Of a stretch of DNA of 45,783 bases, positions 1 to 45,783 are shown in pieces; position 1 is the first letter of the stretch, and each line of letters begins with the position of its first letter. Both the position numbers and the translations under genes were made by a program. This DNA is from a bacterium (lineage in GTDB: Bacteria > UBP15 > UBA6099 > JAJRTR01), in the NCBI GenBank assembly GCA_024278215.1, contig JAJRTR010000093.1, forward strand, positions 1 through 45,783, written 5' to 3'. The notes beneath the pieces were generated by a model. It was not told where the DNA came from. It did not search any database and saw nothing but the letters and a program-made list of their open reading frames with translations.

Positions 1-124
1 AGGCGCAGGTGTGAAATCCTCGCAGGCGTACTTGTAGAGTACGTCGAGGACGATTTCGCGCCGACAACGCAGCTATGGACAATAGCAGCCGACCGCAGCA
101 GAATCATAATTTTGCAATTGGCTC
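1..124 (+). repeat. 178-bp palindromic interspersed repeat, copy 1 (left-truncated by window)
   Basis: This is the right two-thirds of the same element seen complete at 2155, 17863, 28696 and 39501. It ends in the terminal inverted repeat AATTTTGCAATTGGCTC at 108-124. It carries the conserved central hairpin (arms around GTACT / AGTAC near 29-43) and the block reading TGGACAATAGCAGCC. Its orientation matches the copies at 2155 and 39501. The left end and left flank lie outside the window, so a target duplication cannot be tested. I infer a non-autonomous mobile element (MITE-like); no transposase is nearby. Confidence 0.9.
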
Positions 125-284: not shown

Positions 285-1979
285 TCAGCCGAGTTTTTCC
301 AGCACGTGCATACCGCCTTCGACAAAAACGGATTCGCGCCCAGCCATTGCAAGCGCACGCTGGACCTCATAGGATCGCGTACCCGTCGCGCAGAACACAA
401 GGACATCCCTGTCTTTCGGCACCCTGTCTATCTCATCCCTGAATCGCTCGATAGGAATATTCAGGACACGCGAATTTCCCTTGTCGACGGGGCTTCTCTC
501 GATTTCCGATTCCGCGCGCACGTCGAGAATACAGAAATCTTTGTCGCTTTCCAGCTTCTTTTTAAAGTCCATAATGGACATGGAAACAGCTATGCCGTCG
601 AGTTTGTTCTGCAATGAATTCGCCGCGTGAATGAGAAGGTCCATTGCGCTTGCGAAGGGGGGCGCGTAGCCCATGTCGAGGTTGCCGACCTGCGCGGCGG
701 TGGCTTTGAATGTGATCATGGCCGCGACAGCGTCCAACCTGCGCGGCACGTTGCCCGCACCGATCATCTGAGCGCCCAGAATACGTCCGTCCGCCGCGTC
801 GGCTATCAGTTTGATAATCATGTCTTTTCCGCCGGGGTAGAAATGGCTGACATCATGGCCTGACAGAAGGAAAGTTTCGATTTTATAGCCGTTTTTTTCC
901 GCAATAGCGCTGGATAGGCCTGTGCGGACGACATTCAGCCCGACGGTTTTCATGAAACCCGTGCCGAGCACGCCGGGGAAAGTCGCGTCACCGCCGGTGA
1001 TATTCGTGCCGATGACCCTGCCGTGTTTGTTCGCGGTGGAGCCGAGCGGGATGTAGGATTTGCCGCCGGTGACAAGGTCGTCGTTCAGGATGCAGTCGCC
1101 GCCTGCGTAGATGTCCGGATCGCTTGTCCGCAGCCTGTCGTCGACGGCGATTGTGCCACGGTCGGTTATATCGAGTCCGGCCTCGCGTGCGATCTCGACA
1201 TTGGGTTTCACACCGACCGCCACAACCACGAAGTCCGCTTTATATTCGCCTTTGCTTGTTATCACCTTGCAAACATTGCCGTTGTCGTCGCCGACGAGTT
1301 TTTCGACGCGCTCGCCTGTGCGGACATCAGCGCCGTGTTTTCTCAGCTGCACTGTGAGAATCCCGGCGATGTCGCTGTCTACCACGTTGGGCAGCACCTG
1401 GTCCATGAGTTCGATAATCGTCGAGTCGACAGCCTGTGCCATCAGCGCGTCGACGACCTCGAGCGCGATGCGTCCGCCGCCCACTATCACGGCATTCTCG
1501 GCGTCCACTTCCTCTATGCAGTTGAGAATTCCCACCGCGTCGTCCGGCCTGCGAAGCTGGAACACATTTTTGAGGTCCATGCCTTCAATCGGCGGCGCCA
1601 CCGGGTTGGCTCCCGAAGCGATCACGAGTTTATCGTAAGGAAAATCCGTCGTTTCTCCAGTGTCCAGGTTCTTCGCTGTTACGGTTTTATTCTCTCTGTC
1701 GATCTTCAGCGCCTCAGTTCTCAGAAGAAGGTTGATCCCTTTTGTGTTTTTGAAAAATTCGGCATCCCTGATCGCACCCCACGGCATAGTCAACAGAGTG
1801 TCGACCGAAGGCACTGCGCCCGCGATAAGAAACGGCAGCCCGCAGCCCGCGTAAGATGCGTAATTACCGCGTTCGAGTATCGTTATCTCGGCCTCGCTGT
1901 CCAGCCTGCGCGCTCGCGCGGCGGCTTTCGCGCCACATGCCACACCGCCTATAATCACAATTTTCTTGCTGTTTCCCAT
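285..1979 (-). CDS. CoA-disulfide reductase-like flavoprotein with C-terminal rhodanese domain
   Basis: This 564-aa cytoplasmic flavoenzyme has the CoADR-rhodanese fusion architecture, a family known to reduce CoA disulfide, CoA persulfide or polysulfide with NAD(P)H. The N-terminal dinucleotide fold starts at residues 7-16 (IVIIGGVACG). The single redox cysteine lies in SYAGCGLP (Cys46), as in CoA-disulfide reductases, which have one Cys instead of a CxxC pair. An NAD-binding motif GGGRIALE is at 167-174 and the second FAD motif YAGGDC at 291-296. A conserved YAPPF tyrosine (Tyr438) is in the dimerisation domain. Residues about 468-564 form a rhodanese domain with active-site Cys530 in CATGTRS. 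The start is supported by an AGGAG ribosome site just upstream. It stands alone between repeats, transcribed leftward. A role in sulfur handling or thiol redox is inferred from the fusion; the exact substrate is not determinable. Confidence 0.9.
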   Translation of the reverse strand: MGNSKKIVIIGGVACGAKAAARARRLDSEAEITILERGNYASYAGCGLPFLIAGAVPSVDTLLTMPWGAIRDAEFFKNTKGINLLLRTEALKIDRENKTVTAKNLDTGETTDFPYDKLVIASGANPVAPPIEGMDLKNVFQLRRPDDAVGILNCIEEVDAENAVIVGGGRIALEVVDALMAQAVDSTIIELMDQVLPNVVDSDIAGILTVQLRKHGADVRTGERVEKLVGDDNGNVCKVITSKGEYKADFVVVAVGVKPNVEIAREAGLDITDRGTIAVDDRLRTSDPDIYAGGDCILNDDLVTGGKSYIPLGSTANKHGRVIGTNITGGDATFPGVLGTGFMKTVGLNVVRTGLSSAIAEKNGYKIETFLLSGHDVSHFYPGGKDMIIKLIADAADGRILGAQMIGAGNVPRRLDAVAAMITFKATAAQVGNLDMGYAPPFASAMDLLIHAANSLQNKLDGIAVSMSIMDFKKKLESDKDFCILDVRAESEIERSPVDKGNSRVLNIPIERFRDEIDRVPKDRDVLVFCATGTRSYEVQRALAMAGRESVFVEGGMHVLEKLG

Positions 1980-2089
1980 GTTTCCCTGCTCCTTTCGCTA
2001 TTATGCTCCAAAACGTCGTAACTCTACTTAACATATTATGTTTTCATATTCTATAACACCAGCCGGCGTTTTTTAAGTATCGCTCTATT

Positions 2090-2115
2090 GCGCCGATTGC
2101 AGAATTATTCGGAAG
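2090..2115. repeat. Possible decayed end of the 178-bp repeat
   Basis: This stretch resembles the left terminus of the interspersed element: about 16 of the first 19 bases agree with GAGCCAATTGCAAAATTAT, followed by TCGG. It lies 40 bp left of intact copy 2 and is not followed by the rest of an element. It may be a solo or degraded terminus; chance similarity is possible over this length. Confidence 0.35.
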
Positions 2116-2154
2116 TTGGGAATAATGCCGCGAAAACGATTGATACTATAGATA

Positions 2155-2332
2155 GAGCCAATTGCAAAATTATGTTCGTAGCGAGGTCGAGCGAAATTGT
2201 TCAGAGCAAGGCGGAGGTGTAAAATCCTCGCAGACGTACTTGTAGAGTACGTCGAGGACGATTTTATGCCGACAACGCAGCTATGGACAATAGCAGCCGA
2301 CCGCAGCAGAATCAGAATGTTACAATTGGCTT
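2155..2332 (+). repeat. 178-bp palindromic interspersed repeat (MITE-like), copy 2, flanked by GATA duplication
   Basis: Complete copy. The left terminus is GAGCCAATTGCAAAATT; the right terminus is a slightly decayed inverse ending in GGCTT. It is flanked on both sides by GATA (2151-2154 and 2333-2336), as expected of a 4-bp target-site duplication. Both halves are imperfect inverse complements, so the whole element could fold into one long hairpin with an apical AGTAC stem. The 457-bp gap from 1980 to 2436 holds this copy, a possible decayed terminus at 2090 and no gene I can support. Confidence 0.92.
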
Positions 2333-2436
2333 GATAGACAGGATGATAAACGCCGGGTGCCGGGACATATATTGAAACGGGCAACCTGCCTGTGTTATCA
2401 TGAAATCATTCCACATTCCGAACGGGGATTCCGTCA

Positions 2437-2979
2437 ATGGCAGAATACAAACTGGGTTACATCGACATCTACAAATCGGGCCGGAGCGATTACATGGGCG
2501 GTGTGCTGATCGTCAACAGGCTCGGCATACCCGTCGAGTTCAGGCACACGGAAGCCGTGTCGCCGACAAGGGTGCAGAAAGTCCTCTACGGCCAGGCGCT
2601 CGAGAAGTTTCTCAAATGCGAAACGCTGGCCAAATGCCTGCTGGGCGACCTGAAGGCGAAACCCGACCTGCTTGTGGTGCCCGACGCGGAGTACTACCCC
2701 CTGACGCGCATGTTCAATTTCCCTTTCGCGCAGCTCGGTAAAGCCAACAGGGAACCCATGCAGAAGCACGGCGATTATGTGGAAGTGCAGGACAATGAAA
2801 TACATTTGCAGGTACTCTCGCTGCGAACACCCATCAGAGTGCGTGTCGACCGCAAGAACGCACCGACACTTCAGGCGATAAAGAGTATACTGGTGGATGT
2901 GGGCCGCACGATGGATGTGCTCGAACCCATGACGAGGGTGCAGGAAGCGCTCAAGGCGCTCGTTACGGAGACCGGCTGA
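2437..2979 (+). CDS. Unrecognised 180-aa protein, first gene of a three-gene unknown operon
   Basis: No family is recognised. The protein is soluble, without signal peptide or membrane segment, and looks mixed alpha/beta. It has two cysteines close together (KCETLAKC, near residue 60-66). A hydrophobic stretch at residues 76-82 (PDLLVVP) precedes an acidic/aromatic DAEYYP. The C-terminus is helical. It overlaps the next gene by one base (stop TGA and start ATG share an A), which implies translational coupling. The start codon has only a weak GGGGA upstream. This is a real gene judging by its operon linkage and normal composition. Function unknown. Confidence 0.75.
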   Translation: MAEYKLGYIDIYKSGRSDYMGGVLIVNRLGIPVEFRHTEAVSPTRVQKVLYGQALEKFLKCETLAKCLLGDLKAKPDLLVVPDAEYYPLTRMFNFPFAQLGKANREPMQKHGDYVEVQDNEIHLQVLSLRTPIRVRVDRKNAPTLQAIKSILVDVGRTMDVLEPMTRVQEALKALVTETG

Positions 2980-3659
2980 TGGCACGCCTGCCACGCACTT
3001 TTCTCTTCAAACTCGACGTCCCGGTGAAATCGTTCTGCCCGGATACGGTGCTGGCCGTATCCGCGCAGAACGACGTCGCCCGCCTCGAAATCGAAACACG
3101 ATCGAACGACTATAAGCTGAAACCCGACAGGGTCGCGACGACCGGCCTGACGATGTCCGGCAAAGTAAAAATCGACTCGGTGCCGCTGCTCCGGGGCGAG
3201 CAGTTGAATGTGTCGAGCACTGCCGTGGAATTCAACAAAGTGGACATGCTGGAAACGTCGACTGCGCTCGAAGTCAGACTGCCGCCATCGCCTCGCGTAC
3301 ACAGGATCGAGTGCCGCCCGCCCGACAAAGTCGAGACCTCGATAAGCCTTATCGTCAACCACATGCCCATCACACTCCATGCGCTGGACACCAGCCACGT
3401 ACCGTATCCGCAGATTACCGAATTCATCATTAAACTGGCGGAAAACGCCGGAACATCATACACTAAGATAAAATTTATCGGTGCTTTCGACCCGGTGCCG
3501 GTACACCTTGCGAAAGACCTGAAGCTGGACACTGATCGCAGGATACTAAAATTTCATATAAGAGAGGAGCCGAACAGGGAACGCCGGTTCGTACGTATGG
3601 TATATGGGCGAATCAGGCTGACCGGCGAGATTATTTCCGCTGTTTTTCCTGTAATGTGA
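2979..3659 (+). CDS. Unrecognised 226-aa protein, second gene of the unknown operon
   Basis: No family is recognised. Starting from an ATG that overlaps the upstream stop codon, it encodes a basic, beta-strand-rich soluble protein without signal peptide or transmembrane segment. Features include many Val/Thr/Ser strand-like stretches, a proline-rich patch (RLPPSPRVHR, about residues 99-108) and a basic C-terminal region. It is followed at once by the third gene, whose ATG starts one base after this stop (TGA T ATG). The three genes are probably one transcript and their products may work together; that is inference from spacing only. Confidence 0.75.
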   Translation: MARLPRTFLFKLDVPVKSFCPDTVLAVSAQNDVARLEIETRSNDYKLKPDRVATTGLTMSGKVKIDSVPLLRGEQLNVSSTAVEFNKVDMLETSTALEVRLPPSPRVHRIECRPPDKVETSISLIVNHMPITLHALDTSHVPYPQITEFIIKLAENAGTSYTKIKFIGAFDPVPVHLAKDLKLDTDRRILKFHIREEPNRERRFVRMVYGRIRLTGEIISAVFPVM

Positions 3660-5436: not shown

Positions 5437-5568
5437 ACAAACAACTCTGGATGTGTTTTTTTCGTATATCTGCATTGTGGAGCCGGTTGCAAACTCTGTT
5501 CTACCGCGGTCGGTATCGTGTCCCCATAAATTCCACTATTGTCACGTCATGCTTGTAATGTCGCAAGG

Positions 5569-5660
5569 AGGGCGGAGTCACCGTACCCCGCCTGAACATA
5601 TTTCTCGCGAAAACGGTTTGTACAAGCACAAGTTGAGGCGGGGTACGGTGACCCCGCCCT
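5569..5660. repeat. 92-bp inverted repeat with 25-bp arms
   Basis: Arms 5569-5593 and 5636-5660 are inverse complements with one mismatch (AGGGCGGAGTCACCGTAC against AGGGCGGGGTCACCGTAC, continuing to CCCGCCT), around a 42-nt loop. The right arm is followed by TTTTAT. It lies between the convergent 64-aa ORF and leuS, so it could terminate both transcripts, or it may be a second type of small mobile palindrome. No direct repeat flanks it. The rest of 5437-5767 shows no gene I can support. Confidence 0.75.
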
Positions 5661-5767
5661 TTTATAGTTTTTACGCTACCCCATCTTATATCTTTTCTTT
5701 GTTGACATGGCACTACCTTTAATAAAACGCACAGGTTAAGTAAGTAAAACGGATTTTTACGCAGTCC

Positions 5768-17786: not shown

Positions 17787-17862
17787 TAGCATTCGTGAAC
17801 GTATAAATGCCACAGCGCGTTTTTTAACCCATTGACGCTGCTAAGGAGACATTTATTATAAA

Positions 17863-18039
17863 GACCAATTGCAAAATTCTGATTCTGCTGCGGTCGGCTG
17901 CTATTGTCCATTGCTGCGTTGTCGGCACAAAATCGTCCTCGACGTACTCTACAAGTACGCCTGCGAGGATTGTACACCTTCGCCTTGCTCCGAACAATTT
18001 CGCTCGACCTCGCTACGAACATAATTTTGCAATTGGCTC
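17863..18039 (-). repeat. 178-bp palindromic interspersed repeat (MITE-like), copy 3, flanked by TAAA duplication
   Basis: Complete copy in the orientation opposite to copy 2. The left terminus is shortened to GACCAATTGCAAAATT; the right is intact (AATTTTGCAATTGGCTC). TAAA flanks both sides (17859-17862 and 18040-18043). The central AGTAC hairpin and both half-element blocks are conserved. It sits 48 bp upstream of the YkgJ-type gene, in the 463-bp gap after the unknown exported protein. Confidence 0.9.
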
Positions 18040-18086
18040 TAAAGCATCCGGGTTGTTTTCCTGTGTCCGGCGATTAAAATGTAAAT

Positions 18087-28483: not shown

Positions 28484-28695
28484 GCTTTTACTCCAAAATG
28501 TTTTCTTGTGCATCCAATATAATATTATGCACATCCTTCTAATATATACAATAATAAGCGGAATAAGTTGATTATTGTTCCCAATCGTGTTAATAAAGCA
28601 GAATGGTAAAGAATTCTGATAAAATCCTTTTCCGTTACGGCTATGCGGCGTTCTGTTCTTTCTGTAGGAACGCACAAGTTTATTATGTTTCAAGA

Positions 28696-28874
28696 GAGCC
28701 AATTGCAAAATTCTGATTCGGCTGCGGTCGGCTGCAATTGTCCATAGCTGCGTTGTCGGCGCAAAATCATCCTCAACGTACTCCACGAGTACGCCTGCGG
28801 GGATTTCGCATCTCCGCCTTGCTTCTGAATAATTTCGTTCGACCTCGCTCCGAACATTATTTTGCAATTGGCTC
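28696..28874 (-). repeat. 178-bp palindromic interspersed repeat (MITE-like), copy 4, flanked by AAGA duplication
   Basis: Complete copy, 179 bp, with both 17-bp termini intact. AAGA flanks the element on both sides (28692-28695 and 28875-28878). It is the most diverged in its middle (CTTCTGAATAATTTCGTTCG), yet the central hairpin is kept. It lies between the divergent SDR and ABC ATPase genes, and a likely ABC promoter begins 9 bp past its right end. The SDR-frame reading stays open across the element but has no start signal. The rest of 28484-28922 holds no gene. Confidence 0.92.
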
Positions 28875-28883
28875 AAGATAAGT

Positions 28884-39500: not shown

Positions 39501-39678
39501 GAGCCAATTGCAAAATTGTATTCGTAGCGAGGTCGAGCGAAATTGTTCAGAGTATGGCGTAGGTGTATAATCTTCGCAGTCGTACTTGTAAAGTACGTCG
39601 AGGACGATTTTGCACCGACTACGCAGCTATGGGCAATAGCAGCCAACCGCAGCAGAATCATAATTTTGCAATTGGCTC
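39501..39678 (+). repeat. 178-bp palindromic interspersed repeat (MITE-like), copy 5
   Basis: Complete 178-bp copy with both 17-bp termini intact, in the orientation of copy 2. Its flanks do not form a clear direct repeat (GCAC on the left, ACAT on the right). The GCAC on its left equals the bases right of copy 1. It lies in the 411-bp gap 39374-39784 between the GADEF protein and the next unknown gene; no other feature is supported there. Confidence 0.92.
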
Positions 39679-40707: not shown

Positions 40708-40760
40708 CTTAAACATCACAGCAAATCACTGTGAAAGAAAAAGAAAAGGAGAAAAACAAC

Positions 40761-41138
40761 ATGGCACTGGAAATCGACAAACTGGGATACGCAGGCATCG
40801 GCCTCGTAGCAAAGATGCAGGACCTCATCGAGGACTTCATAGAAGGCCGCGACGATGAAGAGGTCGACGCAGAAGTCGCAGAAGAGGAAGAAGAAAAGAA
40901 CTTCCAGGAAAAATTCGACGCGCTCGTCGAGCTCGGTGAAGAACGCTACGACGAATGGATCGAAAAAAGCAAGGAAGAAAAAGAAAAGATCACCGACAAG
41001 ATCAGTGAACGCACAAGCAAGGTTTTCTCAGAAATCGGCCTCGTGACAAAAGAAGACATAGAAGAACTCGAAGCCAAGATCGCCAAGCTTCAGCGCGCGG
41101 TGAAAAAAGCAGCGGCGTCCGCCAAAAAGGATGCGTAA
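40761..41138 (+). CDS. Phasin-like coiled-coil protein, first of a tandem pair
   Basis: 125 aa, acidic to basic, mostly helical. It begins MALEIDKLGYAGIGLVAKMQ and ends with the Ala/Lys-rich tail typical of phasins. The KEDIEELEAKIAKLQRAVKK helix, with Lys-rich end, resembles the phasin/PhaF-like family, which coats polyhydroxyalkanoate granules or acts as a nucleoid-associated regulator. AGGAG at 40747-40751 precedes the ATG at 40761 by 9 bases. The frame opens 10 codons earlier, but these are only Lys/Glu and lack a site. The downstream paralogue shares most of the sequence. Assignment by composition and motif only; no PHA synthase is in this window. Confidence 0.75.
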   Translation: MALEIDKLGYAGIGLVAKMQDLIEDFIEGRDDEEVDAEVAEEEEEKNFQEKFDALVELGEERYDEWIEKSKEEKEKITDKISERTSKVFSEIGLVTKEDIEELEAKIAKLQRAVKKAAASAKKDA

Positions 41139-41220: not shown

Positions 41221-41288
41221 CGGGAACTCAAATTGTTAAAGGGGCGGAAAAAACCAGAACGTCCGCTCCGGAAGAAAGGGGAAATATA

Positions 41289-41663
41289 ATGGCACTGGAA
41301 ATCGACAAACTGGGATATGCGGGAATAGGACTACTGGCGAAAATGCAGGACTTGATCGAAGACTTCATCGAAGGTCGCGACGATGAAGAGGTCGAGGAAG
41401 AAGCCGTCGAAGAAAACGAAGACAAAAACTTGAAGGAAAAGTTTGAGGATCTCGTCGAACTCGGTGAAGAACGCTACGACGAATGGCTCGACAAGGGCAA
41501 GGACGAAAGAGAAAAAGTTACCGACAAGTTCAGAGAACGCACAAACAAAGTCTTCTCCGAGATGGGACTTGTGACCAGGGAAGACATCGAGGAACTCGAA
41601 GCCAAGATCGCCAAGCTCCAGCGTGCGATCAAAAAAGCAACGGCAACAAAGAAAAAATCATAA
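41289..41663 (+). CDS. Phasin-like coiled-coil protein, second of a tandem pair
   Basis: 124 aa, a close paralogue of the gene ending at 41138, identical or nearly so at MALEIDKLGYAGIG, MQDLIEDFIEGRDDEEV, EELEAKIAKLQRA and other segments. It arose by tandem duplication; differences cluster in the acidic middle and at the C-terminus (KKATATKKKS). An AAGGGGA site precedes the ATG. A U-rich terminator follows (41691-41716). As in the first copy, a granule-coating or DNA-associated role is inferred. The two could form heteromers. Confidence 0.75.
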   Translation: MALEIDKLGYAGIGLLAKMQDLIEDFIEGRDDEEVEEEAVEENEDKNLKEKFEDLVELGEERYDEWLDKGKDEREKVTDKFRERTNKVFSEMGLVTREDIEELEAKIAKLQRAIKKATATKKKS

Positions 41664-45642: not shown

Positions 45643-45783
45643 GAGCCAATTGCAAAATTCTGATTCTGCTGCGGTCGGCTGCTATTGTCCATAGCTGCGT
45701 TGTCGGCACAAAATCGTCCTCGACGTACTCTACAAGTACGCCTGCGAGGATTTTATACCTCCGCCTTGCTCCGAACAATTTCG
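45643..45783 (-). repeat. 178-bp palindromic interspersed repeat, copy 6 (right-truncated by window)
   Basis: Starts with an intact left terminus GAGCCAATTGCAAAATT and continues in the orientation of copies 3 and 4 to the window end; the last 37 bases or so are missing. Nearly identical to copy 3 over the visible part. Left flank CCAT. It lies 82 bp upstream of the large exported protein's start codon. Confidence 0.92.

Follow-up and report, generated by a model that had tools for sequence, protein, structure and literature searches.

The window, i.e. the whole analysed stretch of 45,783 nucleotides, is one entire contig from a 207-contig, 4.55-Mb assembly, and it contains six copies of a palindromic element of about 178 bp, in both orientations, just where the original prediction had placed them. 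Complete copies are located at 2155..2332 (178 bp, minus strand, which is the strand carrying CTGCTGCGG...CTCGACGTACT), 17863..18039 (177 bp, plus strand, with one base deleted in the left terminus), 28696..28874 (179 bp, plus strand), and 39501..39678 (178 bp, minus strand). The 4-bp target duplications that had been claimed for three of these copies are all real, namely GATA (2151..2154 and 2333..2336), TAAA (17859..17862 and 18040..18043), and AAGA (28692..28695 and 28875..28878), and the copy at 39501..39678 has no recognisable target duplication. Two further copies, at 1..124 (minus strand) and 45643..45783 (plus strand), are cut off by the contig ends. Both ends of the window lie inside copies, so the element breaks the assembly; copies are also found at the start or end of many other contigs.

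Other repeats are present in the window as well. A second dispersed family, with up to 14 alignments in a 0.84-Mb sample, occupies positions 5515-5737 and is preceded by a terminus-like GAGCCGGTTGCAAACTC at 5480. Two 300-bp direct repeats, 81% identical and 528 bp apart from start to start, lie at 40754-41053 and 41282-41581.

When the whole genome was searched with the end motif GAGCCAATTGCAAAATT, allowing up to two mismatches, 662 matches (332 + 330) were obtained, as against none with the reversed control motif. Terminal inverted repeats, GAGCCAATTGCAAAATT at one end and its inverse at the other, are therefore confirmed, and the count of end motifs corresponds to about 330 copies of the ~178-bp palindrome in 4.55 Mb. 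The inverted-repeat termini are approximately 17 bp long with GAGCC/GGCTC as the outermost ends. Full-length copies yield a consensus of 178 bp, to which they are on average 93% identical (median 94%), and this mean identity among copies suggests that the amplification was fairly recent. The element carries no gene. The original statement that all copies are intergenic holds for 65 of 73 copies, which lie outside crude ORF calls; the other eight, including the copy at 28696-28874, overlap crude ORFs, several of which look like over-long ORF starts. Homogenisation of the two arms within the copies of the host genome was rejected, with a single compensated terminal change vs. 83 single ones.

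Target-site duplications were counted for 70 full-length copies with flanks from a 1.38-Mb sample of the host genome. Exact 4-bp duplications were found in 43 of the 70, and agreement at three or more of the four bases in 59, whereas permuted pairing of the flanks gave a mean of 1.7 exact pairs and never more than 7 in 2000 trials. Genome-wide tabulation of the flanks had been set beforehand as the test of the predicted duplications, and the agreement between 4-mers is far over chance. Other duplication lengths are scarce among the same copies (2 bp in two, 3 bp in three, 5 bp in three, and 6-8 bp in none), and controls at shifted positions gave 0-2 duplications. In a larger sample of 1.96 Mb, 65 of 109 copies had an exact 4-bp duplication. 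The duplicated target sites are A+T-rich without conforming to a strict consensus. A single paralogous empty site (L077 vs. L101), 78% identical over only 63 bp, is compatible with a 4-bp duplication.

The element is thus short, non-coding, and present in high copy number, with inverted-repeat termini and a duplication of fixed length, and its reading as a non-autonomous DDE-style transposon, or MITE, is strongly supported by the terminal inverted repeats and the 4-bp duplications. This part of the original interpretation stands on a genome-wide footing, but the mobilising transposase that it assumed was sought and not found, and it had treated the interior as neutral. An autonomous partner was sought among the families PF13751, PF05598, and PF01609 and among all duplication-flanked pairs of ends at distances of 0.6-3.5 kb; none of the pairs with a duplication bore a transposase in the 1.96 Mb examined out of 4.55 Mb (43% of the assembly). 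None of the three DDE_Tnp_1 genes in the host genome is flanked by the ends of the element; one has an inverted repeat of another kind, and the other two read as unrelated truncated transposases. Both matches to DDE_Tnp_1_6 in the host genome are decayed fragments, and DUF772 has no match there. One such DDE_Tnp_1_6 fragment adjoins a copy in contig C188 and was rejected as a partner, since this 178-bp copy is flanked by a CATA duplication of its own and was therefore inserted beside the decayed fragment. Two end-pair candidates were rejected as well. The stretch at L076 (G000:C175) 1696-3518 contains a DUF342-like (FapA) gene and no transposase, and the second candidate spans two neighbouring elements. 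The transposase may be encoded in parts of the genome that were not sampled or not assembled, or it may have been lost. Because no autonomous partner was found, mobilisation in trans is what we infer.

Several structures related to these ends were observed in the host genome. The 1823 bp between the element ends at L076 1696-3518 are flanked by a TTAT duplication and contain part of another repeat; a gene capture is possible, as is a coincidence of two fragments. A mini-family of 62-64 bp (L092 5216-5279, L282 4921-4982, L134 8146-8208, and L142 2002-2063) has the same kind of ends without the central part, or core, that is described below. Perfect 4-bp duplications were found on a 63-bp and a 46-bp core-less copy, that of L134 being GATT. 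Since these short copies have duplications, insertion can apparently proceed without the core, unless the copies lost it later. A third repeat, with a consensus beginning CCCGGATTTCTCACAAAGGAATCCGG, gave 74 alignments in 1.96 Mb (e.g. L093 12843-12978, L081 4484-4619, and L147 5615-5750) and is sometimes fused to half of a 178-bp element.

The interior of the element contains a hairpin, CTCRACGTAC–loop–GTACGCCTSCG, and non-palindromic motifs are found at fixed distances from it, TGCGTTG in the left arm opposite CGCCTTG in the right arm. Together these constitute the core, i.e. the 104-bp centre of the element, in which the stems between the hairpin and the flanking motifs are variable. Covariation in the core stem is 0.315, compared with 0.135 for shuffled sequences and at most 0.07 for slid partners, and 88 double-sided changes were counted. 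This structured 104-bp core is conserved, and palindromic elements in other bacterial families and phyla contain it between different termini.

At the DNA level, a search among relatives revealed elements that are 71% alike in G005, a genome of the same order and another family, with different ends (GAGRCTCTAACAAAA). In G041, which lies outside the order, a match of 37 bases is restricted to the element centre. The core pattern CTCGACGTACT-N6-AGTACGCCTKCG, which specifies about 22 bases of the centre and selects its matches by the core sequence itself, found 30 stretches in 85,000 named genomes vs. approximately 0.015 expected by chance according to our own estimate. These stretches are in records labelled Nitrospirae, Deltaproteobacteria, Omnitrophota, Eisenbacteria, Ezakiella, and RA.bin91 (= G005), and nearly all of them are the centres of palindromes of ~120-180 bp. 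Beyond the bases of the query they share TGCGTTG opposite CGCCTTG and, in the long forms, also TGCTGCG opposite CTCGCTACG.

A covariance model, R1, was built from 14 cores. Within the window it matches the copy at 17863..18039, covering the core hairpin and the flanking TGCGTTG / CGCCTTG motifs at 17900..18002 (plus strand, 74.6 bits, E 4.6e-18). Among 386 genomes, sampled mostly one per family, 29 have R1 matches at E <= 1e-4, and many of these 29 have several copies among the at most 10 candidates scored per genome. Named genomes labelled Nitrospirae, Deltaproteobacteria, Eisenbacteria, Omnitrophota, and Ezakiella were matched by R1 as well, and counts of 40, 37, 23, 23, 13, 9, 3, 3, and 1 copies were found in named genomes. 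Genomes that did not contribute to the training set have an unchanged motif consensus; the search is, however, biased towards the consensus, and its matches lean to it. The arms were examined using only sequence at the edges of or outside R1, in genomes that had not been used for building the model; inverted arms beat all 200 shuffles in 79% of 67 matches, with a median z of 7. Searches of viral contigs, plasmids, and phages found no core match, and carriage by phages or plasmids was rejected on this basis.

The termini joined to this core differ by lineage. Elements of the host genome have termini of the type GAGCCAATTGC, with the 4-bp duplications. GCCCG... termini are found in Nitrospirae, Eisenbacteria, G041, G154, G277, G354, and G377, TACGAACGC... 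termini in G176 and a Nitrospirae genome, and TGAAAAAGG termini in other genomes. Almost every copy of the GCCCG type measures 177-180 bp (vs. 178 bp in the host genome), and many other elements have a short form of ~119-127 bp. Among 41 listed elements, of which ~32 are truly of the GCCCG type, TA flanks occur on the left in 23 and on the right in 18, which we take to be what IS630/mariner-type transposition would leave. TTA/TAA flanks in G005 are suggested by only three copies, and no clear duplication was found for the GAAAAAGG / TGAAAAAGG type. Overall, the case for different transposases in other genomes is not as strong as the duplication evidence in the host genome.

More than one type of terminus can occur in a single genome. 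G392, from Deltaproteobacteria, has at least three, and G176 has two with the same altered core, ACATACT/AGTATGCC. The pattern of G176 is not general, since families within one genome have different cores in G094 and G092. In another observation, the outer terminal bases of L352, L353, L354, and L360 (G392) and of L341-L350 (G386) vary between copies and, unlike in the host genome, are matched in both arms of each copy. This may reflect either arm-to-arm correction or different source elements.

It is probable that these elements are MITEs that are moved in trans and carry an old structured core joined to different terminus/transposase systems. In this scheme a DDE transposase would act in trans on the termini in the host genome, and transposases of other kinds may act on the other terminus types. 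The core would be an old, common module that was joined to these systems and was kept for a purpose other than end recognition. A wider proposal is that the core is an ancient bacteria-wide module, repeatedly taken up by or itself recruiting unrelated transposases and kept for a role in the element or the host beyond end recognition, for example as a binding site for a conserved host protein or as a feature that makes long palindromes tolerable; it is offered tentatively, as a reading with a little less than an even chance of being correct.

MITEs are usually viewed as remnants of a single insertion sequence, and their interior as meaningless. The element could likewise be an internally deleted IS whose interior has no role, whole MITEs having been transferred between bacteria and their termini having then drifted. 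The termini and duplications are textbook examples, and the core-less mini-family with its perfectly duplicated 63-bp and 46-bp copies also fits, unless the core was deleted afterwards. However, the termini of different lineages (GAGCCAATTGC, GCCCG..., TACGAACGC..., and TGAAAAAGG...) are not drifted forms but unrelated sequences, the interior retains its motifs and their spacing while the termini differ, and the searches of viral contigs, plasmids, and phages speak against transfer, so that this explanation appears unlikely. The family could instead consist of structured regulatory RNA genes, as was put forward for the Geobacter relative in 2009 under the name 'predicted short RNA elements' (PMC2700814). 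This would agree with the strong folding of the element (z -4.5) and with the covariation of the core, but hairpins in DNA would covary likewise. Target duplications on the copies also argue against it, as does the lack of any Rfam match for the element at the gathering score or at E up to 1.

Orientation bears on the RNA reading and on another. Relative to co-directional flanking genes it is random (15 same, 16 opposite), and it has no association with GC skew (57/107); this absence of preference speaks against a strand-specific RNA role, and an RNA family seems improbable. Single-strand transposition of the IS200/IS605 or REP/RAYT kind could use the asymmetric hairpin as its substrate, and the conserved, strand-defined hairpin motifs are what would recommend it. 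Orientation is, however, without the link to GC skew, the ends are true inverted repeats without a GTAG end tag, and those systems leave no target duplication, whereas 4-bp duplications are abundant in the host genome. The duplication data argue strongly against single-strand transposition there, and it is regarded as very improbable.

A conserved interior under different ends in many families suggests selection on the interior, and non-autonomous elements may change transposase. Scattered intergenic repeats, including the Geobacter 'short RNA' family, are joined into one testable family, and the core provides a motif for seeking a host factor. A sequence and keyword search of open-licence papers found only the Geobacter note and no description of the wider family, which may be described elsewhere.

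The element resembles bacterial MITEs such as Correia/NEMIS, RUP, ERIC, Nezha, and MITEAba12 in being short and non-coding, with inverted-repeat termini, duplications, and a high copy number. Each of these is known from a single type of terminus and a restricted set of hosts. Unlike them, the element described here has a structured core that is common to elements with unrelated termini, and no matching IS was found.

In the portions of Aklujkar et al. 2009 (PMC2700814, Additional file 4) that concern it, the 'predicted short RNA element' family of Geobacter metallireducens is multicopy and intergenic, with 24 copies, and is described as RNA from three Geobacter species and Desulfotalea. At its centre is the palindrome GRCGTAGCGCTGCTACGCC, which is of the same form as the present core and agrees with the core variant GACGTAG..CTACGCC of G354 and G377. 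The form of this Geobacter-type centre, GRCGTAG-loop-CTACGCC, is that of the core, and the CGTAG/CTACG variant is found in G354, G377, and G094. Unlike the present analysis, those portions of the account mention no transposition, termini, or other phyla.

The GTAG-/CGTC-tagged REP elements are also palindromic, intergenic, and spread over phyla, and CGTC REP repeats are possibly mobilised by a broad range of transposases (PMC3733652). Membership in REP/RAYT was rejected, the element being 178 bp long with GAGCC/GGCTC ends and without the tagged 20-40 bp form. REP elements measure 20-40 bp and have the tag at one end (PMC3733652), whereas the elements described here measure 120-180 bp and have inverted-repeat termini and 4-bp duplications.
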